IMG/VR virus record: IMGVR_UViG_3300025133_000467
Location: 1 to 28,860 of that record
Origin: a virus
Direction: 5' to 3' (one strand)
Length of the DNA: 28,860 nucleotides
The notes under the pieces are model-generated. The model saw only the letters and a list, made by a program, of their open reading frames with translations, ran no database searches and had not been told where the DNA came from. A program made the position numbers and the translations under genes. Within the stretch, counting starts at the first letter, position 1, and every line of letters starts with the position of its first letter. Below, piece by piece: positions 1-27,872 of the stretch.

Positions 1-566
1 AACGGACGCAGTTTAAGATAAACTTTCTCCAGAAGGAGTACATCTTGTTCATTATACTTGCACATTTTCTTCCAACACTTAGAATCGTTGTTCATACAAC
101 CTCTCCAAAGCTCGAATCCACCAGTATCAACCTTACGACCTAGACCTAGAATTTCTCCAAGAGTGTCAAGTTTGTTTGAAGTGAATGCAAAGTGTGCTTT
201 TGCTTGTTTAAGAGTATCAATCATACGATACGGGGATGGTGGCATCATTCCATTGACTAAGAATCTTGCGTTAAGTTTCTTTACGTCAAACTTTTGAGCA
301 TTATGCCCAACAACGATATCTGCCTCATCAAGAAGTTTCCAAATGTCACGCAATAATGCGCTATCATCCTGTTGGTTCTTCTTAAAAGTCTTCTTATAAT
401 CGGGTAGTGCTTTGGTAATTGTCTTATTACTATCGAGCCATTTCGCTGACCAAGTGAGAACGTACCAATCTACGTCAATCATCTTCATACTTTTCGCTTC
501 GCTCCATAAACTCCACACGTTTGCGAGAAGAGGAGATGTTTCAATGTCAAATAACAATATCTTCAT
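1..566 (-). CDS. DEDDy-type 3'-5' exonuclease, RNase H fold (partial, C-terminus off window)
   Basis: The frame opens at ATG 566, preceded by an AAAGGA ribosome site, and runs off the left edge after about 188 codons. It shows the three exonuclease motifs: FDIETSP (D7, E9) at the N-terminus, GHNAQKFDVKKL (D94) in the middle and YNEQDVLLLEKVY (Y171, D175) near the end. The Y-x3-D arrangement places it in the DEDDy class, close to the YprB-like RNase H-fold exonucleases. It is not T4 DexA-like in sequence around motif I. It probably removes 3' ends of DNA or RNA during phage DNA metabolism; the substrate cannot be told. It is the last visible gene of the minus-strand block, 72 bases downstream of the acidic protein gene. 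Fold assignment is firm, role is inferred. Confidence 0.85.
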   Translation of the reverse strand, partial: MKILLFDIETSPLLANVWSLWSEAKSMKMIDVDWYVLTWSAKWLDSNKTITKALPDYKKTFKKNQQDDSALLRDIWKLLDEADIVVGHNAQKFDVKKLNARFLVNGMMPPSPYRMIDTLKQAKAHFAFTSNKLDTLGEILGLGRKVDTGGFELWRGCMNNDSKCWKKMCKYNEQDVLLLEKVYLKLRP

Positions 567-638
567 AATTTTCCTTTGTTGTGAATCACAATCTAACACA
601 TTGAACCCTCCAATTCAAGTTTTTTATCAATTAATTTA

Positions 639-1058
639 CTAAACTGCCGGTCCTTGACTGTCCATCACACCGTCTTCTGGAACTGATTCCTTAACATTCT
701 TCTCCAAAATGTTTTCAATAGTTTGGAGGATCATTGTACCTTCATGATCACTCTTCACATGCTCTGGATCAAGATTGTCTAGCTTATTTCGTAGACTTTC
801 TTCAACATCGTCGTAGTTGGTTGTTAATGCATGATAACATAGTACTGCCAATTCCTTATAAGGCTTGGTGTATTCAGGTTCTTCAGTGGTTGCACCCTGC
901 TCTGGATTAGGAGATGCGTCCATAGAAGGATCTTCCATCGGCATTTCACTATCCATAGACTGTCCATCGCCTATAGCTCCACCGTTATTGGCATCCATTT
1001 CGGAAATTACGCCATATTCCTTATTCTTCTCTGCTAATAGTTCTTCAAATTTATTCAT
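639..1058 (-). CDS. Small acidic protein with capsid-targeting-like N-terminus
   Basis: A 139-residue acidic protein, not recognised by family. Residues 1-10 (MNKFEELLAE) have the length, amphipathic pattern and final A-E of the T4 internal-protein targeting peptide (MKTYQEFIAE), and L-A-E fits the (L/I)-x-E cleavage rule of prohead protease gp21. Residues about 24-65 are low complexity, rich in D, E, M, G and P; residues about 66-130 look helical, with a run of acidic and Leu residues. The start at 1058 has an AGGT ribosome site eight bases upstream and lies two bases after the stop of the preceding gene, so the two are co-translated. It could be a prohead-core or internal protein; that is inference from the N-terminus only. 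Confidence 0.75.
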   Translation of the reverse strand: MNKFEELLAEKNKEYGVISEMDANNGGAIGDGQSMDSEMPMEDPSMDASPNPEQGATTEEPEYTKPYKELAVLCYHALTTNYDDVEESLRNKLDNLDPEHVKSDHEGTMILQTIENILEKNVKESVPEDGVMDSQGPAV

Positions 1059-1060
1059 AA

Positions 1061-1459
1061 TTATACCTGTACACTCCCTGCACCCATAGTTCCAGACGTA
1101 TTCGTTGAAGCTGGTGCCGCTGAAGTGGTTTGTGTTCCATTGGATGGAGCATTTGGATTGGTTTGAGAATTAGGAACATTGCCCTGCTCTGCTTGCATTG
1201 CTGATGCAATCGCCTGATACTTCTCATCGCCCTGTAGTTTTTCATATTCTGCAACTACTTTAGGATCTTGTCTTCCCATCCAATCTAGCATACCTTCGGC
1301 AGTGATTTCACCCGCTGGTGACTGCGCACCCGTTGGTGCTTGTCCTGTAGGATTAACTCCTGCTGGATTTTGAGCTTGTGGTACGCCCATGGTTTGAGGG
1401 GCTGGAATATTTTCATCCAACTTCTCTACTACGTCATTGATTTTATCTTCAAATTTCAT
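1061..1459 (-). CDS. Pro/Gly/Ala/Gln-rich low-complexity protein
   Basis: A 132-residue protein of unknown function. The first 16 residues (MKFEDKINDVVEKLDE) form an acidic amphipathic segment ending in L-D-E, again a possible gp21-type (L/I)-x-E site. Next comes a P/G/A/Q/T-rich stretch (about 18-50) with repeated Pro-Ala-Gly and Pro-Thr-Gly units, a short ordered island (EGMLDWMGRQDPKVVAEYEK, about 55-75), then a Thr/Ser/Asn-rich tail. The start at 1459 has a strong AAGGAG site. It lies two bases upstream of the acidic gene, so the pair probably works together. The composition suggests a disordered virion or scaffold component; no homologue is recognised. Confidence 0.72.
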   Translation of the reverse strand: MKFEDKINDVVEKLDENIPAPQTMGVPQAQNPAGVNPTGQAPTGAQSPAGEITAEGMLDWMGRQDPKVVAEYEKLQGDEKYQAIASAMQAEQGNVPNSQTNPNAPSNGTQTTSAAPASTNTSGTMGAGSVQV

Positions 1460-1480
1460 GTAATTTCTCCTTATAAGTAT

Positions 1481-2041
1481 TTAGCCCATGAAAAGGCGTT
1501 TAAATTCTATTTTATCAATTAAATTGTCGGTGATGTCGATCAATCCTTCTTTTTTTGCAAACTTCTTGAACTTCTGGAAGCTACTCACCTGATTTTTCAA
1601 CTTCTCTCGGTCACACTCAACTTGCAGAAGGAATTCCTCACCTTCTCCAGTGTGTATATAATTCCCAAACTCTGAAAACTTACAGTCAACTTTTTTAATT
1701 GCCAACGGTAAGTCTCGTTTTGTTCTATCTATCACTCCAATACATTTACTGATAAATATGTCATCATCTGAAATAAGCCCACCGCTCGTGAACTCAATAT
1801 GTTTTGGAATTATTATGGCATTGGTTCGCTTCTGATCAACGTAGACGTATGATTTCAGGATCTCAGCCAAGGTAGCGTGTTTCAGATATCTAGCATTGAA
1901 CGCTTTGGTTATTTTGAGGGGGTGTTCTTTTTGCAGATGTAATATGTCTTCCAAGAAAGACTCTCTGATATCCATTAGGATACCAGAGAAGTCCACGAAT
2001 TTGTAATGTTCGTCTTCGTATATATTAATTCTTCCGTGCAT
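1481..2041 (-). CDS. Conserved-looking phage protein of unknown function (186 aa)
   Basis: A 186-residue mixed alpha/beta protein with no recognised motif. It overlaps the end of the upstream gene by 17 bases, and no clear Shine-Dalgarno precedes ATG 2041, so translation probably depends on coupling. The next in-frame Met would remove 22 residues, so the long form is preferred. The middle (about 60-115) alternates hydrophobic and charged residues, as in beta strands; the C-terminal third is lysine-rich and helical (EKLKNQVSSFQKFKKFAKKE). Its stop codon lies inside the TAAATACTTATA motif that precedes the next gene. Compact domain structure and operon position support a real gene; function unknown. 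Confidence 0.75.
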   Translation of the reverse strand: MHGRINIYEDEHYKFVDFSGILMDIRESFLEDILHLQKEHPLKITKAFNARYLKHATLAEILKSYVYVDQKRTNAIIIPKHIEFTSGGLISDDDIFISKCIGVIDRTKRDLPLAIKKVDCKFSEFGNYIHTGEGEEFLLQVECDREKLKNQVSSFQKFKKFAKKEGLIDITDNLIDKIEFKRLFMG

Positions 2042-2666
2042 TTAACAACGATTCGATTATCATTTGTTCGAATTTAGAAGTGGATATGCCCTTTGACGAA
2101 TACTCTTCAGCCACGGATGTAAGTTTTGAAATACATTCCTGAATGTCATCCTTACATTGTAATTCTATCGGGTAAAGCTGTTCAATATCCTCAATAGAAT
2201 CCACTTCTTTGTTTTCATAGTACAATGAAATGTTTAGAATATCAAGCTTTTCCTGCATTAAATTTTTCACACGGATCAGATATTTATCAACTCCGGTCAG
2301 TGCTTTGCGTTCTTCTAGGTTGTCTGGTTCACGAATGGCATTACCCTGTTCGTCAATCAATCCAAGCTTATAGGCATGAGTCTCATTGATAGGTTGTGCC
2401 AGTTTCTGCATAATCAGCCCCTGAACAATACCATCTTCCAATGCTTCTACCATGATTGGATTGTAGGCTATACCTTTTTGGTGGATCTTTCCGAATGGAT
2501 TGTATGGGCATCCAGTACCAGTACAGGTTGACCCGCACCATACGCAACGACGAGGGTCGTCTACATGAACATGAAGTCTTTGCGGTCCATATGGACAAGA
2601 CTTTCCATAGGCTTTACTATCGCAATACATGCATTTACTATCTCTGTCTGTTCCTGTTATCTTCAT
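2025..2666 (-). CDS. Protein with two Cys3-His zinc-binding repeats
   Basis: A 213-residue protein. The N-terminal 62 residues contain two copies of one module: C12-x2-C15-x8-C24-P-Y-x-P followed by H32, and C41-x2-C44-x8-C53-P-Y-x-P followed by H62. An extra C48 and H34 lie nearby. Each module offers three Cys and one His, as expected for a small zinc finger or knuckle. The remaining 150 residues appear helical and acidic, with no recognised domain. Its ATG overlaps the stop of the upstream nuclease gene by four bases (ATGA), so the two are translationally coupled. A nucleic-acid or protein-adaptor role beside the nuclease is plausible but inferred. Confidence 0.8.
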   Translation of the reverse strand: MKITGTDRDSKCMYCDSKAYGKSCPYGPQRLHVHVDDPRRCVWCGSTCTGTGCPYNPFGKIHQKGIAYNPIMVEALEDGIVQGLIMQKLAQPINETHAYKLGLIDEQGNAIREPDNLEERKALTGVDKYLIRVKNLMQEKLDILNISLYYENKEVDSIEDIEQLYPIELQCKDDIQECISKLTSVAEEYSSKGISTSKFEQMIIESLLNARKN

Positions 2667-3160
2667 TTATTAAACCTCGTGTGATTCTCACTTAAAAATA
2701 TTTTCATGTCAACGATGACATAATGTTTGCGATAGTTCATTGAACAATCTGGCAGTTTGAATTTAAATTCCCTAACTGTCTTCTTATCCAATACAATATA
2801 CGCTCCCGCATTGTTAATCTTGAAGATCACCATCCAATACGGTTTGCTCGTTATCTTAGACTGCTCTATCCAACCATTAAGTTGAGCTATTCCTTCTGGT
2901 TGAAACAATTTCTTCCATGCAAGGTCTTTGTAGAATTTACATTCCAATGACCAATCCTTCCATTCATCTGGCGTAATGATATCTCCATCGAATATTTGAG
3001 TCTGTCCTTCTGTTAAATTTCCCACACGAACTTGGTTTTTACCACCAAGAAAGGCTCCACTATTTGGAACCCTTGTAAAATTTAGCTTTGTTAATTCGTT
3101 GAGATACTTGCAGACATCTCTTTCAAACCCATTTCCTTTTGTTTTTGATTTAGATGGCAT
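2663..3160 (-). CDS. PD-(D/E)XK nuclease, archaeal-type Holliday-junction-resolvase-like
   Basis: A 165-residue nuclease. The start at 3160 is chosen because ATG there follows GGAAGGAGATAGT, an excellent ribosome site, and lies one base after the upstream stop; a longer in-frame extension to 3280 would lie wholly inside the neighbouring gene. Motifs: GNGFERDV (E13), RVPNSGAFLGG (31-40), FDGDI (D60), SLECK (E73, K75) and a conserved tail KPYWMVIFKINN. The order E...GDI...E-x-K is typical of Hjc-like resolvases and related phage PD-(D/E)XK enzymes. It would cut branched DNA during recombination and packaging. T4 uses an unrelated enzyme, endonuclease VII (gp49), for this job. Catalytic residues are intact. 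Junction specificity is inferred. Confidence 0.8.
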   Translation of the reverse strand: MPSKSKTKGNGFERDVCKYLNELTKLNFTRVPNSGAFLGGKNQVRVGNLTEGQTQIFDGDIITPDEWKDWSLECKFYKDLAWKKLFQPEGIAQLNGWIEQSKITSKPYWMVIFKINNAGAYIVLDKKTVREFKFKLPDCSMNYRKHYVIVDMKIFLSENHTRFNK

Positions 3161-3161
3161 A

Positions 3162-3593
3162 CTATCTCCTTCCCAATTTAATTCCAACCACCTCATAAAG
3201 TTTATCATACCATTTATATGAGAACACTTCACCATTGGTGGAAAATACTCTAGCCATATACCTATCAAAAGGCTTGACATATGTCAATGTATAAACTAAT
3301 GGTCTATTCTTTTTCAAATAGGATAACATCTCAGACTCAGTATCAAATTGTATACACATTGATTCTGCCGCTTGTTTATCCTTACCCCACTTCCAATACA
3401 ATGTCACTGGTCCTATATACGAAGGTCTAAAACATCTACACTTTCGTAAAACCTTCTTCAATCGAGGTTCATCATACTGTATGTAACACTGATCCCAAGC
3501 AACATCCCCAATAGCAATTTCACCGTCTTCTAATTCCGGCATCTCATCACTAGCAGTTATCTTAGTAACCGCCCAAATTTCATCTTCATTCAT
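3162..3593 (-). CDS. Hypothetical protein, 143 aa
   Basis: A 143-residue protein without a recognised family. The N-terminal third is acidic (MNEDEIW..., DEMPELEDGEIAIGD) and the C-terminal half is basic and aromatic, with many Tyr, Trp and Phe (VTLYWKWGKDK; YKWYDKLYEVVGIKLGRR), suggesting a small alpha/beta fold. The start at 3593 has an AAGGAGA ribosome site six bases upstream. Its stop overlaps the ribosome site of the nuclease gene, which starts two bases on. It may assist the nuclease or be a DNA-binding accessory protein, but nothing in the sequence proves it. Confidence 0.75.
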   Translation of the reverse strand: MNEDEIWAVTKITASDEMPELEDGEIAIGDVAWDQCYIQYDEPRLKKVLRKCRCFRPSYIGPVTLYWKWGKDKQAAESMCIQFDTESEMLSYLKKNRPLVYTLTYVKPFDRYMARVFSTNGEVFSYKWYDKLYEVVGIKLGRR

Positions 3594-3637
3594 AAATTTC
3601 TCCTTGTAACTACTTATGGAGAATGCAGTAAATGCAA

Positions 3638-4426
3638 TTACATATTTGGGAAAGTTCTTCGTGTAACCGCAAAATCAATCTTGCCGGGACTTACAGACTT
3701 TGGATCTTTCTTCCCCTTCTTCTTCTTTTTCTTCTTCTTTTCGCTTTTGGCTCCTATGACTTTTGGCATCCTTGCATCACCAGTAGCGTAATTATCACCA
3801 CCACTGATTGGACCGCCATCTGGATTGTATGATGCTCCGATTGACTCACCGCCACCGAATGCTCCACCCGCTCCTGCTGTCATATCTTCCATTACCTCAT
3901 TATATTTTGCATTAAATTCATCCTTAGTTCTTTGGGAATTTTTCTTATGTCTGAGATGGAATTCAGTAAGTCCATTATGTGTATAGAATGCAACATCCCA
4001 CACATTAGGATCTACAAGCTTCTTAACCATTCGTGCATATAATCTGCCTCTATTCGTGTCACTCTCTTTCCCACCACTCTTATCAACACTATCAGCATCG
4101 AAGACAATAAGACGAACACGGTCTTCATATCTAGACACATAATCTTCCATCATCGCAATGACAGTACTAAATACTCGTAGTCCATCAGACGCTCCCGTCA
4201 AGTTGAATGTAGATCTTAGATCTGCCGACCTAGCAAGAAATGCAACATCATATGAACCCTCACCATCTTCACCATGATCGTTTATACCAAACTCTATCGT
4301 ATTGCCAGATGCGTCTGTAAATTCACCCTCACCATTCCGTTCATCCATCTTAGTCCATTTATATGGATATGTAGAATTAAAGGATTCATACATTATCCTT
4401 TCATATGTTTCTTCAAATTTTGTCAT
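3638..4426 (-). CDS. Conserved phage hypothetical with Gly-rich linker and polylysine tail
   Basis: A 262-residue protein. ATG 4426 is chosen because AAAAGGA stands just upstream; an in-frame GTG at 4465 lacks a ribosome site. Residues 1-150 look like one alpha/beta domain, with TGASDGLRVFSTVIAMM in the middle and VRLIVFDADS followed by RGRLYARMVKK. This resembles a family of phage hypothetical proteins in which an F-S-T-V helix is followed by a strand and an R-x-L-Y-x-R motif; I recall no known function. A Gly/Asp/Asn-rich linker follows (about 180-220), then a run of eight lysines in a strongly basic segment and the conserved-looking end FAVTRRTFPNM. It is the first gene of the leftward operon, nearest the control region. 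A virion-associated or DNA-contacting role is possible. Confidence 0.78.
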   Translation of the reverse strand: MTKFEETYERIMYESFNSTYPYKWTKMDERNGEGEFTDASGNTIEFGINDHGEDGEGSYDVAFLARSADLRSTFNLTGASDGLRVFSTVIAMMEDYVSRYEDRVRLIVFDADSVDKSGGKESDTNRGRLYARMVKKLVDPNVWDVAFYTHNGLTEFHLRHKKNSQRTKDEFNAKYNEVMEDMTAGAGGAFGGGESIGASYNPDGGPISGGDNYATGDARMPKVIGAKSEKKKKKKKKGKKDPKSVSPGKIDFAVTRRTFPNM

Positions 4427-4465
4427 TCCATTCCTTTTCATTTTCCAAAATGATAGTTTTTCCAC

Positions 4466-4494
4466 TTGACATTCGTTTTTCGGTCCAGTATACT
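4466..4494 (+). promoter_or_regulatory. Sigma70-type early promoter
   Basis: TTGACA (4466-4471) and TATACT (4489-4494) are separated by exactly 17 bases: a perfect -35 box and a five-of-six -10 box. It faces right, toward uvsY 318 bases away, so its transcript would carry a long untranslated leader containing the repeats and hairpins. This is a host-sigma-type early promoter by sequence. Confidence 0.7.
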
Positions 4495-4517
4495 TAATAT
4501 TATCCAGTATATTTAAT
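4484..4517 (+). repeat. Tandem repeat TCCAGTATA(C/T)TTAAT, two copies
   Basis: Two 15-base copies differing at one position start at 4484 and 4503, a 19-base period. The first contains the -10 box of the upstream promoter. A partial inverted relative (CAGTATAATT) lies on the minus strand at about 4658-4667. The copies could be a regulator site overlapping the promoter. Confidence 0.6.
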
Positions 4518-4522
4518 CATAA

Positions 4523-4650
4523 TTTAATCTAATCTAGGGTCATTTAGTTAATTTAATACAGGATATATTTTTAAGTTGTTCATTCTTTTTTTTGTAAACT
4601 CCGTTTACCAACTTTAATCTAACTACTTTATTAGATTAAGTTAGATTTAA
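4523..4650. repeat. TTTAATCTAA repeat cluster, two direct and two inverted copies
   Basis: TTTAATCTAA occurs at 4523-4532 and 4613-4622; its inverted form occurs as TTAGATTAA at 4631-4639 and TTAGATTTAA at 4641-4650. The copies at 4614-4622 and 4631-4639 form a perfect nine-base-pair inverted repeat around an eight-base loop. Such clusters occur at operators and iteron-type origins; function here is inferred. Confidence 0.55.
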
Positions 4651-4669
4651 TTTAATTCAATTATACTGA

Positions 4670-4698
4670 AATATTAACACGAAAAATTCAAAAGTCAA
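4670..4698 (-). promoter_or_regulatory. Candidate leftward sigma70-type promoter
   Basis: Read on the minus strand, TTGACT (4698-4693) is followed after 17 bases by AATATT (4675-4670), or after 16 by TAATAT. The -35 box is good and the -10 box is moderate (four of six). It faces the leftward operon beginning at 4426. No better leftward candidate was found in the region. Confidence 0.4.
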
Positions 4699-4724
4699 GT
4701 ACTTTTTTTGAGTTTTTTTTCGTG
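4678..4724. other. Long imperfect hairpin
   Basis: CACGAAAAA-TTCAAAA-GT (4678-4695) pairs with the segment 4701-4724, whose reverse complement also begins CACGAAAAA and ends GT, around a five-base loop. Bulges of extra A/T are needed. It does not fit a classical terminator because the U-runs lie inside the stem, but it would fold in transcripts of either strand. It could be a processing or attenuation element. Confidence 0.45.
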
Positions 4725-4739
4725 GGATTAATTTGTCCT

Positions 4740-4747
4740 TATAAATA
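4740..4747 (+). promoter_or_regulatory. T4-type late promoter motif TATAAATA
   Basis: This is an exact match to the T4 late -10 element recognised by gp55, 64 bases before the uvsY start and facing it. In T4, uvsW is expressed late, so a late promoter before uvsY-uvsW-55 makes sense. A single eight-base AT-rich match in AT-rich DNA may be chance. Confidence 0.45.
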
Positions 4748-4761
4748 TTTACCTAGAAAGC

Positions 4762-4790
4762 TTGATTATTATGAAATAATATGCTAGAAT
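4762..4790 (+). promoter_or_regulatory. Extended -10 promoter just upstream of uvsY
   Basis: TTGATT (4762-4767), a 17-base spacer and TAGAAT (4785-4790), with TGC directly before the -10 as an extended -10 element. Transcription would begin at about 4797, leaving a leader with AAGGA before ATG 4812. This is probably the proximal promoter of the replication module. Confidence 0.6.
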
Positions 4791-4811
4791 AAAATACATA
4801 AGGATAACACG

Positions 4812-5222
4812 ATGACACAGAACGGATACAAGGAATTAACCCAGCTAAGAGATGAATATATTGAAGATGTAACGGTAAACGTAATGAACATTGGCGAGAA
4901 GTCTATGCTAACCTCCACGATTAAAGCTTCGTGGTGTGGTAGACTGTACGCATATAGGCATAATCTCAAGACTGAAGAGAAGAATTTAGAAGTACTGCGA
5001 GCCACTGAACGCAAAATCATTCAAAGTGGATTAAAGGTGGTAACATCGGAGGCTGAATTGAAACAATTGAAGCTTTCGAACAGCAATGCCATCATCGCAA
5101 AGGAAGAAAGAATTGATGACTTGAAGGAGATTATATCTTTTTTGAGAGAAACGCAGAAACTTGTCGCCTTTTTTGGGAATGACATAAAAAATGCCGTGGA
5201 TTATATGAAGTTGGATGCATGA
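4812..5222 (+). CDS. uvsY: UvsY-like recombination mediator
   Basis: A 136-residue, largely helical, charged protein; T4 UvsY has 137 residues. The C-terminal end (KLVAFFGNDIKNAVDYMKLDA) matches the pattern in T4-like UvsY proteins, where a final helix with D/A-I-K-x-I/A-x-x-x-x-x-F/L precedes the terminus. UvsY loads UvsX recombinase onto gp32-coated ssDNA. Placement directly before uvsW, as in the T4 uvsW-uvsY neighbourhood, strengthens the call. The ribosome site is AAGGA. The stop overlaps the uvsW start (ATGA), so the two are translationally coupled. Identity rests on length, helix pattern and context more than on strong residue identity. Confidence 0.75.
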   Translation: MTQNGYKELTQLRDEYIEDVTVNVMNIGEKSMLTSTIKASWCGRLYAYRHNLKTEEKNLEVLRATERKIIQSGLKVVTSEAELKQLKLSNSNAIIAKEERIDDLKEIISFLRETQKLVAFFGNDIKNAVDYMKLDA

Positions 5223-6670
5223 GGACTGTAAGATTTGAGATATATAGCAAAAATAAAGGACTTATAAAGACTGATTTACTGCCAATGATTAGAGAGAAAC
5301 TGTCGGTTGCTAATAAAAATGCGGCCCACATTGAACGTTCTATCGGCAGAACTGTCCCACGTATTTACGCAATAACTAATGGTGGTCGTTTTGAAATAGG
5401 AATGTTCAAAGAGATCAAGAGAATCATAGGTAAGCTTGGAACCCCTGTAAAATATGAATACAGTGACGAGTTTCGTGAGGCTCTTATCCCGCAATATCCA
5501 TTTCATGAAGAAACCTTGCCTAGTTTGGGGATGGAACCGTATGAATATCAAGAAACATCTGTTCGCAGAATGCTTAAGTTCGGACGAGGGAACCTTTTGG
5601 TTGGTACTGGTGGCGGTAAAACGTTTATCATGTCTCTTTTTGCTAAAACTGTACTTGAAACTAAGAAAGATGACAGGTTTTTAATCATTGTACCGACCCT
5701 TCAGCTAGTTGAACAGACCTATTCTGACTTCCTAGAGTATGGATTCCCTAAGAAATTGATATCCAAATGGTCGGGTGACAATAAATTCAACAATACTCAG
5801 ATAATTGTAGCCAGTGCGTCAATTTTGCAGAGTAAACTCAGTGATTTGAAGTTTTTATCCAAGATAGATGTCCTGCTGGTAGACGAAGTACACATTTTAA
5901 AGAAGTCCAATGGCATCAATAAGATCATTGATAAGGTTCCTACTGCTAATAGGTTCGGATTCACTGGTACAATGCCAGAAGAAACTATTGATATCTGGAA
6001 TGTCCTTGGAAAAATAGGACCAATCCTATACGAAAAGGATTCTAAGGAACTTCGTGATGGTAAATTCATTACAGAAGCTAAGATTGACATCATAAAGGTC
6101 AACTACAACGGCAAATCGTTGATGGATCTGCATGAAAGATTAGATGCAACCCCTACAAAGTACCAAGCTGAGTTGGAATTTGTCATCGAACATGAATATC
6201 GGAACAATCTCATCGCAAAAATGGCTATGAGCCGTTCAGGTAATACACTAATCATGGTAGATCGCATCATACATGGTGAACTTCTAGAGGAAATCCTAAA
6301 GAAAAACACCAAAGGTAAGAATATATACTTTATTCAAGGAGAAGTTGGTGTTAAAGAACGAGAAGAGGTTAGGGAAGTGATGGAGCGAGACAGTAATGTC
6401 ATCTGCATCGCAATCTCTAAGATATTTTCAACCGGAATTAACATTAAGAACATCCATAATATCATCTTTGCAACTCCCGGTAAGGCAAAGGTGAAATTAA
6501 TACAGAGTATTGGTAGAGGATTACGGTTGCACTTAAGCAAGAACATCCTTCGTGTGTTTGATTTTTCAGACAACCTACATTACTCAAACAAACATCTCTT
6601 CAAGAGAGAGAGGTTATACTTATCGGAGAAACTAAATTATGAAATCAGAAACATTAAAGAACCCACCTGA
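5219..6670 (+). CDS. uvsW: UvsW-like SF2 DNA helicase
   Basis: A 483-residue superfamily-2 helicase (T4 UvsW has 503). An N-terminal domain of about 100 residues precedes the motor. Motifs: Q-motif-like YEYQ (108-111), Walker A GTGGGKT (129-135), Walker B DEVH (222-225), FTGT (248-251, motif III), FSTGINI (403-409, motif V) and QSIGRGLR (429-436, motif VI). UvsW unwinds R-loops, branch-migrates recombination intermediates and regresses forks, shifting replication from origin- to recombination-dependent initiation. It overlaps uvsY by four bases and the gp55 gene by 32. All catalytic residues are present. Confidence 0.93.
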   Translation: MRTVRFEIYSKNKGLIKTDLLPMIREKLSVANKNAAHIERSIGRTVPRIYAITNGGRFEIGMFKEIKRIIGKLGTPVKYEYSDEFREALIPQYPFHEETLPSLGMEPYEYQETSVRRMLKFGRGNLLVGTGGGKTFIMSLFAKTVLETKKDDRFLIIVPTLQLVEQTYSDFLEYGFPKKLISKWSGDNKFNNTQIIVASASILQSKLSDLKFLSKIDVLLVDEVHILKKSNGINKIIDKVPTANRFGFTGTMPEETIDIWNVLGKIGPILYEKDSKELRDGKFITEAKIDIIKVNYNGKSLMDLHERLDATPTKYQAELEFVIEHEYRNNLIAKMAMSRSGNTLIMVDRIIHGELLEEILKKNTKGKNIYFIQGEVGVKEREEVREVMERDSNVICIAISKIFSTGINIKNIHNIIFATPGKAKVKLIQSIGRGLRLHLSKNILRVFDFSDNLHYSNKHLFKRERLYLSEKLNYEIRNIKEPT

Positions 6671-7094
6671 AAAGAAAGCTAAGAAAAAGAAGAAGCATTA
6701 CGTAGATCCTGTAAAATTTAAGGAATTGATCCTAGAATATTACGATACGGATGATTTCTCAGAAGAACTTGGTAATATGGTTAATGATATATCAAAACAT
6801 GTGGCATATATGCCCAACTTCATCAACTATACCTACCGAGATGAGATGATTAGCGATAGTAATTTCAAAATGATCAAGGCATTGAACCAGAAAAAGTATG
6901 ATCCGACTAAAGGGAATCCCTTTGCATACTTTACAAAGATCTGCTGTCGTGCTTTCATCAATGTAATCAAGAAAGAGAAGCGTGTTGAAGAGACTGTGAC
7001 CAAATATCAGACAGAGATGTATGATGAATTGGCACTTCACGGACTGCCAATTGGCAATGCCGATGCGTCAACGGATGAATATGTCTATGAATAA
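6639..7094 (+). CDS. 55: Late-transcription sigma factor gp55
   Basis: A 151-residue protein (T4 gp55 has 185). It opens with a basic patch (KKAKKKKK, 12-19). The region from about 67 to 116, containing RDEMISDS, then NPFAYFTKICCRAFINVIKK, matches the gp55 sigma-region-2-like core, where M-I-A-D, N-P-x-A-Y-I-T and F-x-x-x-I-K-K-E occur in T4. It binds host RNA polymerase and recognises the late TATAAATA element. The last residues (STDEYVYE) resemble the clamp-binding tail of T4 gp55 (SLDFLYE). A GGAG lies about ten bases before the ATG. It overlaps uvsW by 32 bases and gene 47 by 14. Confidence 0.88.
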   Translation: MKSETLKNPPEKKAKKKKKHYVDPVKFKELILEYYDTDDFSEELGNMVNDISKHVAYMPNFINYTYRDEMISDSNFKMIKALNQKKYDPTKGNPFAYFTKICCRAFINVIKKEKRVEETVTKYQTEMYDELALHGLPIGNADASTDEYVYE

Positions 7095-8088
7095 GGTATG
7101 CACCATATCAGATCTCCATCTGGGGTGTCATTGTGATAGCGAACACTGGCATAAGATCACTCTGGATTGGGGAAAATGGTTGAGAAATGAACTTATTGAC
7201 CAAGATATTGATAAAATCGTCATGTGTGGTGACTTTTTTGACAATCGAAATGAGATTGGAGTGAAAACCATCGCAGTTGCAGGACAATTAATGGATTTGT
7301 GGAATGATTTTGAGATTGTAATGATCACAGGCAACCATGATCTGTTTTATCGCAACAGAACCGATGTAAGTTCAGTTTCAATCTTTGAAGGTCGGAAGAA
7401 TGTCACCATTGTAAACTCAATGACTCAGGTTACTATGGGAACGAAGACAGTTACATACATTCCTTGGGGTCAAGACCTTGATGACTGTAACAAATGCGAC
7501 ATTATCTTCGGTCACTTAGAAATTAATGGCTTTAAAATGATGCCGGGAAAGATTGCAGAAGGAAAAACAATGCCAAAGTCTTTAACAGATAAGGCGAAGC
7601 TCACCTTCTCAGGACATTTTCACCTTCGGGATGAACGCCAGTATCTAAAATCTAAGATCATCTACGTTGGATCTCCATATCAAATCAATTGGGGTGAAGC
7701 TTCCAACATGCCGGGATATTATCTTGTTGATATCGATGATATGAGTTACGAATTCTTTGAGAATACCGTGTCTCCCAAGCATGTTAAAATGCCATCCGAT
7801 AAGTTACGGCTGGATAGTGTTGAAGGAAACATCATTGCTGTTGATATTAAACAAGGAATGGAAGAAGCTGACATTGAAAAGATGAAAACTCAGGTCTATG
7901 ATAAGAACCCATTGGAAGTTAAATGGAATATTCTTAGAACAGAACATGAAGTTGAAGGAATTAGTTACAGTAGCAACGTTGACATCTCAGAAATGATGAT
8001 GAAATTCGTAGATAAACTGCAATTGGAAGACTATTCCCAAGAAGTCAAGGATAAACTGTTAGAACTTTACAATAAATATAACAAATAA
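7081..8088 (+). CDS. 47: Recombination endonuclease subunit gp47 (Mre11/SbcD-like)
   Basis: A 335-residue calcineurin-fold phosphoesterase (T4 gp47 has 339). Metal-binding motifs, counted from the Met at 7081: SDLHLG (D11, H13), GDFFDN (D51), GNHD (N85, H86), GHLE (H145) and SGHFH (H179, H181). These are the full Mre11 set. ATG 7081 is preferred because GGA stands five bases upstream; ATG 7087 is a close alternative. The frame stays open to 7021 inside gene 55, but that extension lacks support. With gp46 it resects double-strand ends for strand invasion. In T4, genes 47 and 46 are adjacent; here about 2.5 kb of sugar genes separates them. Confidence 0.95.
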   Translation: MSMNKVCTISDLHLGCHCDSEHWHKITLDWGKWLRNELIDQDIDKIVMCGDFFDNRNEIGVKTIAVAGQLMDLWNDFEIVMITGNHDLFYRNRTDVSSVSIFEGRKNVTIVNSMTQVTMGTKTVTYIPWGQDLDDCNKCDIIFGHLEINGFKMMPGKIAEGKTMPKSLTDKAKLTFSGHFHLRDERQYLKSKIIYVGSPYQINWGEASNMPGYYLVDIDDMSYEFFENTVSPKHVKMPSDKLRLDSVEGNIIAVDIKQGMEEADIEKMKTQVYDKNPLEVKWNILRTEHEVEGISYSSNVDISEMMMKFVDKLQLEDYSQEVKDKLLELYNKYNK

Positions 8089-8126
8089 CTTGATTATCAA
8101 ATTATACTATAGTACTATTAGGACAT

Positions 8127-8984
8127 ATGAAAAATAAATTAGGAATCGGATACATCACATGTGATGCTCCAGACAGAGTAAAAGCGACTTACCCAACTAT
8201 TCCAAAGGGTGTAGGAGAATTGGTCGTTGTAAATAGTGGATGTATTCTCAATGAAGATGAATACTTCCCAGAATCTACCAAAGTAATTCAAACTGGTAAG
8301 AAAATTAATGTGGCGGTTGCAAAGAACCGTGCCTTGCGACATCTTATGTCCGAGGGTTGTGAACATATATTCTTAATTGAAGATGATATGATTATTAAAG
8401 ACGCAGGAGTCTTCGGAGCATATCTGAAGTCTGCTGAAGCGTCAGGAATCTGGCATATGAATTATGCCTTGCAGGGTGCATTGAATCGTGCGCAGGATGT
8501 GAATGCCGATGTTAAGACATTAGCTGACTTGAACGCACTGAAATCGGATTCAGCCCCCGCCCCCAGAGCTAAATTAGAGTATGGGAATGGAATCAAATTA
8601 GCATTCTATCCCCATGCTCTTAGCTCATTTCAATATTTCTATCGTGGGATTGTTAAGAACGTTGGATACTTCGATGAAAGATATCAGAACTCCCTTGAGA
8701 ATGTAGATTACATCTACCGTGTTATTGAAGCGGGACTGCACCCTCCTTACTGGTGGTTTGCAGATATTGATAACTCATCATATTATTTGGAAAGCCTACC
8801 AGATTGTGATACCAATTCAGTCCTACGTAGTGATGAATCCTACGGTGAGAATATGCTATTCGGTAAACAATGGTTTAAAGGTAAATATGAAATCACTCCA
8901 GAGATTGTCCCAGACACTCAGGAATCCCTTGCTCTTAAGAGAATTAATGAGATCAAGATGAAGTATGCTAGGAAGGTAACGTAA
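8127..8984 (+). CDS. GT-A-fold glycosyltransferase
   Basis: A 285-residue protein. The N-terminus GIGYITCDAPDR and the acidic triad IEDDM (85-87) after a hydrophobic strand form the nucleotide-sugar and metal site of GT-A enzymes. GYFDERYQNSLENVDYIYR (180-198) resembles the acceptor/catalytic-base region of family-2 transferases, where an acidic pair follows a G-Y-F-D turn. There is no signal peptide or membrane segment, so it acts in the cytoplasm. It starts the sugar cassette immediately after gene 47, with an AGGA ribosome site four bases upstream of ATG. Donor and acceptor are unknown; DNA, a virion protein or a host glycan are all possible. Confidence 0.8.
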   Translation: MKNKLGIGYITCDAPDRVKATYPTIPKGVGELVVVNSGCILNEDEYFPESTKVIQTGKKINVAVAKNRALRHLMSEGCEHIFLIEDDMIIKDAGVFGAYLKSAEASGIWHMNYALQGALNRAQDVNADVKTLADLNALKSDSAPAPRAKLEYGNGIKLAFYPHALSSFQYFYRGIVKNVGYFDERYQNSLENVDYIYRVIEAGLHPPYWWFADIDNSSYYLESLPDCDTNSVLRSDESYGENMLFGKQWFKGKYEITPEIVPDTQESLALKRINEIKMKYARKVT

Positions 8985-8987
8985 TAA

Positions 8988-9773
8988 ATGAAGATATGCG
9001 TATTAGGAAATGGAATTTTAGCCCAAGATTTTGAAAGATTAGATTATGTAGTTCTCGATGGACACTTTCTAGACTTTAAGATTGAGTATGTGTTAGACTT
9101 TGATGTGATCGTCAACACTCATGATTATAGGTGTGATGATGATGGTAATATCAGTCTATCCAATATGAAAAAATGCAATATAGACCTTCCATTTCTATTG
9201 AGTGAGTTCTGTGAGAGTAAGAATAAGAGATATGTTCATATTTCAACTGCGGATCTATATCAGAGTGTGATATGTGATTGTGATGGGACTTGCTTCTTAA
9301 ATGAAGAAGGTGCTTGCACTGAAATATCTAAGATATGTGCCGATAAATCATACGGTGCTAGTAAGATCATGGGGGAAAGTTCCTGTAATAAGAAAAGTTT
9401 AATCATCAGAACCAAGAATATGTTCAATGATGAGCCTGTAAAGGAGAATGCACTATTCCGTGCGATTACGAACACAACTCCAAGTAAGAATGAAGAGAGT
9501 TATTCATGGACAGTCGATGTTATACGTGGGGTCATTGCCCTTCTTAAGAGTAAACAGTACGGAATTTATAATATAGCCTCTGGTGGATTTATCAGCCAAG
9601 CTGAAATTTGTGAAAAATTAGAAATAAGCGGGGTTGCTCCCATAATATCCAACCAAGGTTGTAAGTATATTAAGGTTAGCAACAGTAAATTAATGGAACA
9701 CATCATCCCAATGGATGCCATGGATAATATTCCAAAGTGTTTTAAGAAGTTAAAGGATAAATTAGGAGAATAA
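8988..9773 (+). CDS. RmlD/epimerase-like extended SDR (NDP-sugar reductase or epimerase)
   Basis: A 261-residue Rossmann protein. VLGNGILAQDF (5-15) is the G-x-G-x-x-A dinucleotide-binding turn. HISTADLY (84-91) carries the active-site Ser/Thr and Y122-G-A-S-K126 is the Y-x3-K catalytic pair of extended SDRs. The C-terminal part (GIYNIASGGFISQAEICEKL) matches the substrate-domain pattern of RmlD and NDP-sugar epimerases. It likely produces a modified nucleotide sugar, perhaps a deoxysugar, for the flanking transferases. It is slightly short for the family (about 290) but catalytically intact. It starts three bases after the upstream stop. Confidence 0.82.
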   Translation: MKICVLGNGILAQDFERLDYVVLDGHFLDFKIEYVLDFDVIVNTHDYRCDDDGNISLSNMKKCNIDLPFLLSEFCESKNKRYVHISTADLYQSVICDCDGTCFLNEEGACTEISKICADKSYGASKIMGESSCNKKSLIIRTKNMFNDEPVKENALFRAITNTTPSKNEESYSWTVDVIRGVIALLKSKQYGIYNIASGGFISQAEICEKLEISGVAPIISNQGCKYIKVSNSKLMEHIIPMDAMDNIPKCFKKLKDKLGE

Positions 9774-9775
9774 TT

Positions 9776-9922
9776 ATGAGTAATATAGAAAGAATTAAAG
9801 CATTGTACGTGAAGTTTGACGAACACGTTTCTAATAAAGAATATTCCGATGCACAGAGTGTTATCTGCTTGATTAACGATATAACATGTCTATCAGAAAA
9901 TGATACCGTAGAGGATGGATAA
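9776..9922 (+). CDS. Small acidic ORF, 48 aa
   Basis: A 48-residue ORF with an AGGAGA ribosome site seven bases before the ATG. It begins three bases after the SDR stop, and its TAA overlaps the ATG of the next transferase by one base (TAATG), a typical translational coupling. The product (MSNIERIKALYVKFDEHVSN...) is acidic and probably two short helices. Function unknown; the tight spacing argues it is real and co-expressed with the transferases. Confidence 0.65.
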   Translation: MSNIERIKALYVKFDEHVSNKEYSDAQSVICLINDITCLSENDTVEDG

Positions 9923-10650
9923 TGGCTAATGATATTTTAACCATATGCATCACGGTTAAAAACCGTTCCAGAGTAGAGTGGGAAAACTTAGAAGACCCAC
10001 TTCTACTTCTACCTAACTGTATCCAGAGTATTGGAGAACAGTTTTCAAGGAGGGACAAGGTTGAAATTGTGATCTCAGATTGGCAATCAACCGACTGGCC
10101 CCTACATGAGTGGATGCCTAAAGTCTGTCAGAACCCATATAAGATTGTTACTATTGATAAAGAGGGATTCTCTAAGGGTCACGGAGTCAATGTTGCAGTA
10201 GAACATGCAATGGGTGATACAATCTTCCTAATGGATGCTGATATGCTTCTGAATTCCAGAAGACCTGTCGGTGAAGGTATGGATGTTGTTGCTCATGGTG
10301 GAGTTTACTTCCCAATTCCGAAATATATTGTGAATAAAGAAGGTCACTTCCGTTATTCTTGCGGTGTTGGTAATATGATCATTGATAAACAGATGTTCAA
10401 AGACCTTGGAAGGATGCCTGAGTATTGGAGATATGGATTTGAGGATTCAGATTTCTACAAAATGGTTGAACAGAAGGGAATCAGAGTAATGAGTAAGCCG
10501 ACTACAGACTTGATTCACCCATATCACCCACAATCATTAGCATTCAAAGAACAATATATTGATGATGACCCTGAACATGACAAGCAGATTGAAGAAAGGG
10601 TAGAAGTTTATAGGGCGATGAAAGATAACGATGAAGACTTTACACTTTAA
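9922..10650 (+). CDS. Family-2-type glycosyltransferase (galactosyltransferase-like C-terminus)
   Basis: A 242-residue GT-A enzyme. LTICITVKNR (6-15) is the first Rossmann strand, SDWQSTDW (52-59) and GFSKGHGVNVAV (82-93) are the donor-binding segments, FLMDADM (102-108) is the D-x-D metal site, and YGFEDSDFYK (171-180) is the E-D catalytic-base motif of the galactosyltransferase/chondroitin-polymerase type. The start is set by GAGG upstream and the TAATG junction. It has no membrane anchor. It overlaps gene 46 by 20 bases, so it is embedded in the recombination operon. Its donor is unknown; the neighbouring SDR suggests a modified hexose. Confidence 0.87.
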   Translation: MANDILTICITVKNRSRVEWENLEDPLLLLPNCIQSIGEQFSRRDKVEIVISDWQSTDWPLHEWMPKVCQNPYKIVTIDKEGFSKGHGVNVAVEHAMGDTIFLMDADMLLNSRRPVGEGMDVVAHGGVYFPIPKYIVNKEGHFRYSCGVGNMIIDKQMFKDLGRMPEYWRYGFEDSDFYKMVEQKGIRVMSKPTTDLIHPYHPQSLAFKEQYIDDDPEHDKQIEERVEVYRAMKDNDEDFTL

Positions 10651-12403
10651 GAAATTAAAGTTGACAAATTTTCTGTCTATAGGAGCAAGCCCTCTGGAAT
10701 TAACGTTCCAAGAGGGTTTGAATCTTATTACTGGATATAATAAAGATCAACCTGATGAGAAAAATGGAATAGGAAAGTCCTCGATTTGCGATGGACTCTT
10801 CTTTGCATTGTTTAATGAAACGATCAAAGACCTTAAGATGGGTGAGATCGTAAACGATAAGAATAAAAAGAAGTGTGAAGTTGAATTAGAGTTCTCAATT
10901 GACTATGGGACTCATCATGATCATTATAAGATCATCAGAATGTTAAAACCATCCGATTGTCGCTTTGAAGTGAACGGGCGAACTGATAAAACACTATCAT
11001 CCATCCCTAAAACAAACAAAGCGATTCAGGATGTCTTGGGAATTTCCAAAGAACTCTTCAAACAGGCTATTGTAATGTCTATTGGTAAGAGTGCTTCGTT
11101 CTTTTCGCAGAAGAAAGCTGATAAACGTAAGTTCATTGAAGGAATATTCAACCTTGAAATCATTTCTATGATGCTTGCAGATAGCCGAACTGGATATAAT
11201 GACAGTAAGAAGGAAAAGGATCACCTTCAAGCCCAGTTGGGTAATGAAAATTCCAGACTTGTCCAGTTTAAGGATAAAGATAGTACCTTTGAGGCTAACC
11301 GTGAAGAGTATATTGAGCTTCTTAAAGGTCAAATGCGTGAAGATGTTAAGAAAATTGAACAACTTTCATCAACCCTCAAGGAAGAAACGCCAACTGATGA
11401 GTTGATTGAGAGTCTTTCCGACTTCGCTGAACGTCTTGAGAAGGTAGATGCCTTAAATCTTAAGGTTGAGATTCAACTTTCAGAGCGTAACCGTGAAATT
11501 GATGATCTAGTTAAGGCAATTGATCAGGCTTCAGAGGTTTGCTATGCATGTAATCGAAAATATGATGATGCCGATGAGATTGCGAAGTTGAAAGCTGACC
11601 GAAAACAGCAAATTGAAGATTTAACGGCTGGTCGTATTGATCTAGCAAATAAAAAGAGTAAAATTGTAGACAAGAAGAAGGCTTTGACTAAAGAACGTGA
11701 TGAGATTCGGGTTAGTCTTGCATCAATGAAATCCATTGTGGATTCAAACAAGACAATCAAGTCTCACATAGCCACATTGAAGACTTCATATGCTCAGAAT
11801 AAGGATAAAATTCTTGCAAAACGTGAGGAAGTTTCAGATTTTTCTGATTTAATTTCGCAGACCGTAACGGCAATTACTGACCTTGATGGAGAGTATGTCG
11901 TTGCCTTCCAAGAGCATAAAGTTTTTGATGTTTGTAAGTTTATTTTATCTGAAGAAGGTGTCAAAAGCATTATCATAAAAGAACTGAAGAATTTGTTGAA
12001 CCAGAAGCTAAATAGTTATTTAGATGACTTGGGTTCTCCTGTTACTTGTGAATTTGATGAGTATTTCACGGAGACAATCTACAACAAAAATGGTGTCGAA
12101 AAGTCCTATGATGCATTCTCTGGTGGAGAATCTAAACGCATTGACCTCGCCATACTTCTAACGTTCCAAGACATCCTCAAAGATCAGAGCGGTCTTGATA
12201 TTAAGTTAGGTTTCTACGATGAAATCTTGGATTCGTCCATCGATGAGAGTGGTAGAAAGAAAGTGTTGAGAATATTAAAAGATAAGTCGGATAATACCCC
12301 GACATACATCATTTCCCATCGTGGAAAGATGTCAGATCTCATTGATAATGAGATTGTGTTAGAGAAAAGGAACGATTTTACGTTCATCAAGGAAATTAAA
12401 TGA
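10631..12403 (+). CDS. 46: Recombination endonuclease subunit gp46 (Rad50/SbcC-like)
   Basis: A 590-residue ABC-type ATPase with a split head and central coiled coil (T4 gp46 has 560). Walker A is NGIGKSS (45-51). The coiled coils flank a zinc hook, C304-Y-A-C307. The ABC signature is FSGGES (496-501), Walker B is FYDEILD with D530 and E531, and ISHRG near the end carries the switch His. It forms the Mre11-Rad50-type complex with gp47, processing double-strand ends for UvsX. It overlaps the upstream transferase by 20 bases and the downstream GT-B gene by four (ATGA). All key residues are present. Confidence 0.96.
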   Translation: MKTLHFKKLKLTNFLSIGASPLELTFQEGLNLITGYNKDQPDEKNGIGKSSICDGLFFALFNETIKDLKMGEIVNDKNKKKCEVELEFSIDYGTHHDHYKIIRMLKPSDCRFEVNGRTDKTLSSIPKTNKAIQDVLGISKELFKQAIVMSIGKSASFFSQKKADKRKFIEGIFNLEIISMMLADSRTGYNDSKKEKDHLQAQLGNENSRLVQFKDKDSTFEANREEYIELLKGQMREDVKKIEQLSSTLKEETPTDELIESLSDFAERLEKVDALNLKVEIQLSERNREIDDLVKAIDQASEVCYACNRKYDDADEIAKLKADRKQQIEDLTAGRIDLANKKSKIVDKKKALTKERDEIRVSLASMKSIVDSNKTIKSHIATLKTSYAQNKDKILAKREEVSDFSDLISQTVTAITDLDGEYVVAFQEHKVFDVCKFILSEEGVKSIIIKELKNLLNQKLNSYLDDLGSPVTCEFDEYFTETIYNKNGVEKSYDAFSGGESKRIDLAILLTFQDILKDQSGLDIKLGFYDEILDSSIDESGRKKVLRILKDKSDNTPTYIISHRGKMSDLIDNEIVLEKRNDFTFIKEIK

Positions 12404-13566
12404 ATAATATGATAGGAGTTAACGGATTGCCAATGGGTGTAAACCCACAAAACGCACAAATCCCACAATTTAACAGACCAAAAACTATGGCAAAGCCTGA
12501 AAAGGCTGATAAACCCAACAATGCTGTAAACTATTACGGAGATTTTGGTGGATGTGGTTGGTGGAGAATGCAAATGCCTGAAACTATGATCAATTATAGT
12601 AAGAAAGGTGTGGTTACTGGAATGCACAAGCTGATTCCCGACCCTCAATTCTACGCAGACATACGCAGTGTGCGGTTGCAGAGACAGGCAAGCCCTCAAC
12701 ATGCTCATTTCCTTGATCATATTAAAGGTGTTAGTAAGAAACACGGGTTTAAATTGATCTATGAGATTGATGATATCATTTTCAAGCAGGATATTCCCGA
12801 TTTCAATAAGGCAAAGGTCGCATTTAATAGTGAAGAAATCTTAGCTTCTACATTAAAGATGATGAATACTTGCGATGAGCTTACAGTTACCTGTGATTTC
12901 ATGAAAGATTACTACATGAGCCACTTAGACAATGCTAATATCAAAGTTATTCCCAACATGCCAGCGAAAATGTGGTTTGATGGACACTATAGCACCCAAC
13001 AGGTGATGAAGAATTATGATGATAGTAAGAAACGTCCAAGGGTTTTGTATGCTGGATCAGGAAATCACTTCGATGTTGAGCAGAAAGGTCATGATGATGA
13101 CTTCTCTCATGTTAAAGATGCCATTATCGCATCAAGAAAAGACATCAAGTGGGTGTTCTTAGGATCAATTCCACACTATCTACACCCTTATGTGAAGAGT
13201 GGAGAGATGGAATACCATAAATGGACGATGATCATGAACTATCCTACAATGATTAAGGATCTAAATATCAATGCAGTGGTTGCACCTCTGATGGATTGCA
13301 CATTCAATAGGGCAAAGAGTAACATTAAGTACTTGGAGTCTGCTTGTCTTGGCATTCCCGGCGTGTTTCAGGACTTGGTAACGTATAAGGAAGCACCGAT
13401 TCGCTTCAGTGACGGCAAGGACATGATAAATAAATTGCAGAAACTACTTGCAGATCGGAAATATTATGCTAAGATGTCTAAGCAGTCAAGATCGTATGCA
13501 GAAACAATGTGGTTAGATGATCACCTTGATGAATATACGGACTTGTACTATAATCAGGAGAAATAA
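12400..13566 (+). CDS. GT-B-fold glycosyltransferase
   Basis: A 388-residue protein. Residues 1-42 are a low-complexity leader rich in P, N, Q and K. GGCGWWRMQMP (50-60) and LIYEIDDIIF (119-128) are typical of the N-terminal domain of phage GT-B transferases; IPNMP (184-188) marks the inter-domain linker. RVLYAGSGNH (214-223), WVFLGSIPHY (251-260) and NRAKSNIKYLESACLGIPGV (303-322) form the donor-binding C-terminal domain, where the E of YLES and the L-G-I-P turn are conserved in GT1/GT4-type enzymes. The start overlaps the gp46 stop (ATGA). It sits in the slot occupied by clamp and clamp-loader genes in T4. Substrates unknown. Confidence 0.82.
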   Translation: MNNMIGVNGLPMGVNPQNAQIPQFNRPKTMAKPEKADKPNNAVNYYGDFGGCGWWRMQMPETMINYSKKGVVTGMHKLIPDPQFYADIRSVRLQRQASPQHAHFLDHIKGVSKKHGFKLIYEIDDIIFKQDIPDFNKAKVAFNSEEILASTLKMMNTCDELTVTCDFMKDYYMSHLDNANIKVIPNMPAKMWFDGHYSTQQVMKNYDDSKKRPRVLYAGSGNHFDVEQKGHDDDFSHVKDAIIASRKDIKWVFLGSIPHYLHPYVKSGEMEYHKWTMIMNYPTMIKDLNINAVVAPLMDCTFNRAKSNIKYLESACLGIPGVFQDLVTYKEAPIRFSDGKDMINKLQKLLADRKYYAKMSKQSRSYAETMWLDDHLDEYTDLYYNQEK

Positions 13567-13901
13567 TGAGTAGTATGAAAACAAATAGTATCCCATCACC
13601 AGTTACTGGGGCGTACCCCCCAGTAGGATCAGGGGGTTACGACACTAGTCTAACCCCAGTATACTCACCTTATGGAAGGCAGGGAGATGCCCTCTCTTCC
13701 ATGGATCAAGAAGGTAGAATTGGAATGGATCATAATCACATTCATATCCAACCAACTAGTAATGGATTTGTAATAACAACCTTTACTAAGGAACACGGCA
13801 TCAGGACATATAATTTCAGCGACTTTAAGGAAGTCATAAAATTTATAGATAGGTTGACGATATTAACCCTCGACAATGAGCGTATAGCGGAAAATGTATA
13901 G
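13566..13901 (+). CDS. Hypothetical protein, 111 aa, disordered N-terminus
   Basis: A 111-residue protein of unknown function. Residues 1-50 are low complexity (S, P, G, Y). From about 54 a small ordered region begins (HNHIHIQPTSNGFVITTFTK), with alternating hydrophobics consistent with a beta-sheet, then a helix (SDFKEVIKFIDRLTI). The start overlaps the GT-B stop by one base (TAATG) and the end overlaps the polymerase start by eight bases, so it is coupled on both sides. A strong G/C hairpin lies in its early codons (13604-13625). It might modulate polymerase expression; no homologue is recognised. Confidence 0.7.
   Translation: MSSMKTNSIPSPVTGAYPPVGSGGYDTSLTPVYSPYGRQGDALSSMDQEGRIGMDHNHIHIQPTSNGFVITTFTKEHGIRTYNFSDFKEVIKFIDRLTILTLDNERIAENV
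13604..13625 (+). other. Intragenic G/C-rich hairpin
   Basis: TACTGGGG (13604-13611) and CCCCAGTA (13618-13625) form a perfect eight-base-pair stem with a six-base loop, 38 bases into the 111-codon gene. It is the most stable short stem seen inside coding sequence here, in otherwise AT-rich DNA. It could slow ribosomes or protect mRNA; it may also be a chance effect of the Pro/Gly codons. Confidence 0.45.
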
Positions 13902-16497: not shown

Positions 16498-16567
16498 AAA
16501 ATAATTTAATGTTGGATGACTCATTAACACAAAAAAAGCCATCAGTATACTAAGGAAAAAGAACAAC

Positions 16568-16933
16568 ATGAAAAATGAAATTATCGTATTTTTGGACGGT
16601 GTTAGCCGTACAATTGCGGGTGTGAAAATCGCTGATAGCGATACTACTATTACAGTAGAGAACCCAGTTATCGTAAATGCTATGCCGAATCAAGACGGTC
16701 AGATGACCCTTCAGTTGATTCCAGTATTCTTCCGTGAAGTTTTGGAAGATCAGAATCAGGTGTGTGAATTCGAGTACCAGAAAACTCAGATTACGCAAAC
16801 CAACATCTCAGACATGAATAAGCAGATTACTATGCAGTATAAAATGCTTTTCAAGCCAGTTCCAACGCAGGTTGACGCTGGAGGCACTGATAAAGTTGTA
16901 GATTTGTTTGATGAGGAAGCAGGTAATGAGTAA
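16568..16933 (+). CDS. Small beta-rich conserved-looking protein upstream of uvsX
   Basis: A 121-residue protein. Its first 60 residues (FLDGVSRTIAGVKIADSDTT, then VENPVIVNAMP and LQLIPVFFREVL) alternate hydrophobic residues as in a small five-stranded barrel, and the strand order is reminiscent of Sm-like folds, but no decisive motif is present. The C-terminus is acidic (DKVVDLFDEEAGNE). A similarly placed small protein occurs before uvsX in some distant T4-like phages, from memory. An AAGGA site precedes the ATG; the end overlaps the preferred uvsX start by eight bases. An RNA-binding or recombination accessory role is a guess. Confidence 0.72.
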   Translation: MKNEIIVFLDGVSRTIAGVKIADSDTTITVENPVIVNAMPNQDGQMTLQLIPVFFREVLEDQNQVCEFEYQKTQITQTNISDMNKQITMQYKMLFKPVPTQVDAGGTDKVVDLFDEEAGNE

Positions 16934-19359: not shown

Positions 19360-19391
19360 TTGACTTTCGTGACTATTTGGTAAATAGTTAT

Positions 19392-20222: not shown

Positions 20223-20223
20223 T

Positions 20224-21185: not shown

Positions 21186-21211
21186 TCTAGAAGACAAGGA
21201 AAAGAAACAAA

Positions 21212-22063: not shown

Positions 22064-22071
22064 GATTAACA

Positions 22072-23552: not shown

Positions 23553-23577
23553 ATAATAACAACCCAAGGAATACAAA

Positions 23578-23925: not shown

Positions 23926-23930
23926 AAACA

Positions 23931-23963
23931 AAAGGCACTCTTAATTTTAAGAGTGCCTTTTTT
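23931..23963. terminator. Bidirectional rho-independent terminator
   Basis: AAAGGCACTCTTAA (23931-23944) and TTAAGAGTGCCTTT (23947-23960) form a perfect 14-base-pair stem with a two-base gap, followed on the plus strand by TTT. On the minus strand the stem is followed by TTGTTTTTA. It sits exactly between the convergent stops at 23925 and 23965 and would end both operons. Confidence 0.92.
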
Positions 23964-23964
23964 G

Positions 23965-27870: not shown

Positions 27871-27872
27871 TT

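Follow-up and report, generated by a model that had tools for sequence, protein, structure and literature searches.

A divergent AT-rich intergenic region upstream of uvsY as a candidate R-loop replication origin in an uncultured T4-like virus

In this study, we analyzed a window of 28,860 bases, which is one whole virus record and a genome fragment of an uncultured T4-like virus, and characterized the AT-rich intergenic region at 4427–4811 between a leftward operon and the rightward uvsY-uvsW-gp55-gp47 operon. The region probably serves as a divergent promoter region for both operons. We tentatively propose, at somewhat less than an even chance, that it also works like a T4-type R-loop origin, in which a promoter is combined with an unwinding element; a plain divergent regulatory region is nearly as likely. 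The gap has a GC content of 24% (vs 38%) and is the sole long intergenic gap, as the original prediction stated, with all others at 149 bp or less according to a hand-picked gene list. The most likely start codon of the leftward gene is ATG 4426 (RBS AAAAGGA) and not GTG 4465, and the gap is therefore 4427–4811, or 385 bp. A search for a hidden small gene found no ORF common to the gap of the window and that of its closest relative, L002.

Genes run leftward in 1–4426, rightward in 4812–23925, and leftward again in 23965–28860, and a strong bidirectional terminator-like hairpin (AAAAGGCACTCTTAATTTTAAGAGTGCCTTTTTT) lies at 23926–23964 between the convergent operons. The GC-skew switch tracks gene direction and the third-position skew does not separate the segments, so that GC skew, suggested earlier as a check for an origin, gave no independent signal. 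The rightward block begins with uvsY (4812), uvsW (5219), the gp55 late sigma gene (6639), and gp47 (the ORF opens at 7021, with the start at about 7093), followed downstream by gp46, DNA polymerase, UvsX, a DnaB-like helicase, and a gp32-type SSB. Directly upstream of the SSB gene, 20526–21185 encodes a 219-residue protein of no family, which, judged by its place and size, is possibly the gp59 helicase loader. The protein encoded at 4812–5222 (plus strand) had no family match when searched singly. It matched KVP40 UvsY in tblastn (E 2e-3), six of the eight members of its protein alignment matched Pfam UvsY, and its profile matched the T4/KVP40 UvsY profile in hhalign with a probability of 96.8% (E 2e-10), identifying it as the recombination mediator UvsY. 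The gap had been thought to be followed immediately by uvsW; the next gene is uvsY, and the uvsW helicase gene comes only then, at 5219–6670 on the plus strand (PHROG 16 DNA helicase, E 3.5e-75; tblastn to annotated cyanophage uvsW). Its presence would give the phage a UvsW of its own as a candidate R-loop remover. On the other side, the first gene of the leftward operon (3638–4426, minus strand) has a lysine-rich C-terminal part that is kept across relatives and a long, variable N-terminal part without a clear match, L002 included.

Protein, profile, and DNA-pattern scans over 2.9 million viral contigs yielded one close relative, L002, whose uvsW is 61% identical; no other close relative emerged from these contigs when UvsY, gp55, uvsW, and gp47 served as queries or when the P2 promoter block (see below) was used as a DNA pattern. 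The homologous gap in L002 is 451 bp with 23% GC. At the DNA level, conservation is higher in the gap than in the adjacent uvsY coding sequence: the alignment of the two gaps scored z values over shuffles of 11.8 (global) to 13.6 (local), compared with 0.6–3.9 for the uvsY coding DNA and 2.3–2.7 for the 5′ part of the left gene. At the protein level, the two UvsY sequences are about 36% identical. Conservation is concentrated in a left block (approximately 4436–4560) and a right block (approximately 4655–4752), the latter containing the leftward promoter P2 (block z 11–13) and a rightward TATAAATATTTAC block, while the middle (4560–4660) is AT-rich in both genomes and not conserved in sequence. 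The gp55 late sigma gene of L002 (L002:4081–5574) contains an in-frame insertion of approximately 340 residues, which begins with CVDADTEALT and ends with YVTGN before T; it reads like an intein and had no Pfam match at 1e-3.

Promoter-like matches in 3600–5600 numbered eight against a shuffle mean of 7.9, and real promoters therefore have to be picked by conservation and not by consensus score. The best conserved promoter of the gap is P2, which was absent from the original prediction. It is an extended −10 promoter on the minus strand at 4671–4698 (TTGACT-N16-(TGT)TAATAT; −35 TTGACT at 4698, −10 TAATAT at 4671), found by scan and present in L002 at 2091–2063 with an N17 spacer. The predicted start is at approximately 4664, giving a leader of approximately 240 nt that crosses the AT-rich element. 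The near-consensus promoter on which the earlier reading relied (P1, TTGACA-N17-TATACT, 4466–4494, plus strand) does exist, with 11/12 consensus matches in the promoter scan, and faces P2 across the AT-rich element, but the number of such matches is at shuffle level and P1 is weakly kept in L002, where the aligned sequence reads TTGGCC-N16-TATATT (9/12 matches). An extended −10 promoter had also been proposed, and the scan recovered it close to uvsY at 4762–4790 on the plus strand (P3, TTGATT-N17-(TGC)TAGAAT); L002 has a similarly placed TTGCAA-N17-(TGA)TACTAT, but the two gaps show no sequence conservation there. The late motif was confirmed as an exact TATAAATA box at 4740–4747 (plus strand), the single copy in the window, within the TATAAATATTTAC block (4740–4752) that points at uvsY and is identical to L002 over 13 bases. 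L002 likewise has one copy (2133), in the same place and on the same strand. We take TATAAATA to be a T4-type late box. As a genome-wide late box, it was not enriched over a reversed control in the contigs of five relatives, and the late-promoter label therefore rests on knowledge of T4 and on placement. The gap thus carries the conserved P2 on one strand and TATAAATA with P3 on the other, as in a divergent promoter region.

The long imperfect hairpin noticed earlier corresponds to an inverted repeat around the −35 element of P2 (4678–4724), with arms CACGAAAAA (4678–4686) and TTTTTCGTG (4716–4724; P 0.004). The homologous arms in L002 are GGTCGAAAA and TTTTCAACC (P 0.006); since these differ from the arms in the window, about four pairs have changed on both sides. 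Covariation of the repeat is suggestive only, as two sequences were compared. A nine-base-pair inverted repeat with a short loop is also present, but its significance is marginal (P 0.05). Four TTTAATCTAA-type repeats in direct and inverted order, which the original prediction regarded as special, did not hold up: two copies are exact, the others match with mismatches, and shared 10-mers in the gap are at the level of shuffles (direct, 2 vs 1.3; inverted, 1 vs 1.4). We rejected these repeats as a signal, as they are no more frequent than AT-richness predicts. Such chance repeats and promoter-like strings would be expected if the gap were AT-rich filler left in this small clade after the decay of a lost gene or an insertion, and the confinement of the gap to two genomes, the shuffle-level promoter-like matches and TTTAATCTAA repeats, and the lack of a common small ORF are all in line with decay. 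However, decaying DNA is not expected to align with z values of 12–14 between genomes as distant as their UvsY proteins indicate, and P2, the TATAAATA block, and the compensated inverted repeat are all kept in L002. We regard decay as very unlikely.

We compared 77 loci with the same divergence of uvsY and the left gene, including the window and L002, using gaps defined by longest-ORF calling. The other 75 uncultured loci share the gene order and orientation of the window, but their gaps range from −108 to 134 bp and are mostly below 65 bp, without a 200-bp melting minimum; the window (346 bp) and L002 (418 bp) alone have a long gap in this calling, so the evidence on the long gap covers two genomes. 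TATAAATA is found on the opposite strand in the tiny gap of 27 of the 77 loci, directed at the leftward genes, while in the window and L002 it points only towards uvsY. In L095 (4557), L131 (4590), L138 (4555), and others, the leftward TATAAATA lies approximately 10–20 bases from the likely first leftward start codon, and late transcripts there would therefore be nearly leaderless. These loci bear on the possibility that the gap is purely a transcriptional control region, in which an early P2 serves the left operon, an early P1 serves the right operon, and the late box and P3 serve uvsY-uvsW, with no replication start. The facing P1 and P2 would then interfere to form a timing switch between the operons, and the long leaders or the inverted repeat would tune expression. 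Divergent operons meet here in most relatives, and the conserved blocks are promoter-like, namely the P2 block and the 13 identical bases of TATAAATATTTAC. In addition, two leaders, the rightward one of the window and the leftward one of L002, fold better than shuffled sequence (z about −3.5), but this folding is not common to both genomes (z −0.6 for the leftward leader of the window; z −1.4 for the L002 DNA fold). A conserved leader RNA, considered as a candidate, was dismissed, with no Rfam match and folding z values not shared between the window and L002. Against purely transcriptional control, gaps mostly below 65 bp suffice for the same divergent operons in relatives, and the core at 4560–4660 keeps its composition and not its sequence, which would be expected if it were an unwinding element but not if it were a regulatory leader. 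Because 75 of the 77 loci manage with a short gap, 385–451 bp is not explained by promoter duty alone. We consider transcriptional control without an origin a serious possibility, although one that falls clearly below an even chance.

The physical properties of the gap bear on the origin reading. Nearest-neighbor helical stability, calculated over 200-bp stretches, is lowest in the 28.8-kb window at 4489–4688, a predicted DNA unwinding element (211.0 kcal/mol vs a window mean of 253.5, sd 9.6). In L002, the minimum is at 1871–2070 (193.9 vs a mean of 248.9, sd 10.5). Relative to the mean, these minima are lower by 4.2–4.4 SD in the window and by 5.2 SD in L002, compared with 3.2 SD for the lowest stretch elsewhere (458 kb of large contigs from three relatives and 50 kb of T4). 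In none of 57 relatives does the least stable 200-bp stretch of the locus fall in the uvsY gap, and in T4 the oriF stretch has the lowest 200-bp stability within the surrounding 4.5 kb. In the window and L002 alike, the minimum begins right at the predicted start of the P2 transcript, so that, by calculation, a promoter is immediately followed by an A+T-rich unwinding element. Low melting energy largely reflects AT content, which is also a trait of promoters; divergent intergenic DNA is AT-rich in general, in keeping with a control region without a replication start. The second lowest 100-bp minimum (8047–8146) lies around the short gap separating gp47 from a glycosyltransferase gene and includes a palindrome (TACTATAGTA), another copy of which is located just upstream of uvsY in L002.

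The tandem repeat with a 19-base period was borne out in two copies of TCCAGTATA(C/T)TTAAT (4484–4517, plus strand). The copies at 4484 and 4503 are identical at 14 of 15 positions, above the expectation from dinucleotide shuffles of the gap (P about 0.005). Adjoining the melting minimum, the tandem TCCAGTATATTTAAT copies could be bound by a phage or host protein beside the AT-rich element, as in a protein-initiated, iteron-like origin, and L002 has a degenerate counterpart. There are only two copies, however, and their spacing changes from 19 to 17 in L002, where the pair is not significant by itself. A search for DnaA boxes in the gap found two 1-mismatch sites (0.9 expected) and none that was exact, so that two tandem copies do not make up an iteron or DnaA array. 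No initiator gene was seen in the window, and the T4-type replisome genes point to RNA or recombination priming. Among the readings considered here, protein-initiated replication seems to us the least probable.

A T4 origin requires a promoter together with an A+T-rich unwinding element, the exact sequence of which is irrelevant; the hybrid at the origin needs no specific sequence, the primer end is believed to be generated by RNase H, and UvsW, expressed late, unwinds the R-loops (PMC3016281). The T4 record annotates oriF, or ori(uvsY), at the 5′ end of uvsY and names the transcript of this gene as the primer. Because it lies directly upstream of uvsY, at the 5′ end of the gene, the gap of the window is in the place of T4 oriF. 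Both regions combine a promoter with an A+T-rich unwinding element, arranged in the order known from T4 origins (PMC3016281), in a phage that encodes UvsW, and the T4 uvsY promoter also holds an inverted repeat (CACGTT..AACGTG). In contrast to oriF, the promoter feeding the AT-rich element points away from uvsY, P2 is of the −35/extended −10 type and not the MotA type, the AT-rich element has a much lower stability, and the gene directly after uvsY, on the same strand, is uvsW. The arrangement also differs from the use of the uvsY transcript as primer in T4, because P3 has ordinary coding DNA downstream. The likeness to T4 origins claimed in the original prediction is strengthened by uvsY as the flanking gene, which that prediction did not name. 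A MotA-type middle promoter was not found: the gap contains one 1-mismatch MotA-like site (1.9 expected), which does not precede a good −10 element. As this promoter was sought and not found, we do not claim membership of the oriF type. T4 oriE appears to use an early-mode promoter (PMC3016281), as P2 would be; oriE lies near gene 5 with repEA and repEB nearby, and neither of these genes was seen in the window.

We propose a pathway for an origin of this kind, in which promoter activity, R-loop formation, initiation, and timing are inferred from the elements described above. Transcription by the host RNA polymerase would begin at P2 (leftward), and possibly also at P1 (rightward), and enter the exceptionally unstable AT-rich element. 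The P2 transcript would remain paired with its template as an R-loop and, from its 3′ end, serve as the primer for leftward leading-strand synthesis, and the helicase-primase would load onto the displaced non-template strand. Late in infection, expression of uvsY and uvsW would increase through the TATAAATA box and P3, and UvsW would remove R-loops, shifting replication to the recombination mode. P1 could prime in the direction opposite to P2. An extended form, in which P1 and P2 face each other across the unwinding element as a two-promoter origin of this uncultured T4-like clade, with R-loops on either strand, forks running both ways, and the inverted repeat controlling P2, is unlikely, though less so than decay. 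For the proposal of an origin or master switch as a whole, the uvsY position, the promoter-plus-AT order, the extreme minimum shared with L002, and the constraint on the gap speak in favor, but the elements favored originally are the least supported. As the window is a fragment, the phage may have another origin elsewhere.

To our knowledge, T4 oriF and oriG are essentially the only R-loop origins of T4-like phages known in detail, and a literature search found no report of such a region in marine T4-like phages. If the origin reading is true, origins that are linked to uvsY and combine a promoter with an unwinding element would extend far beyond the T4 group, here without a recognizable MotA promoter. 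The gap would then offer a 385-bp target for studying how T4-like phages of uncultured hosts start replication.
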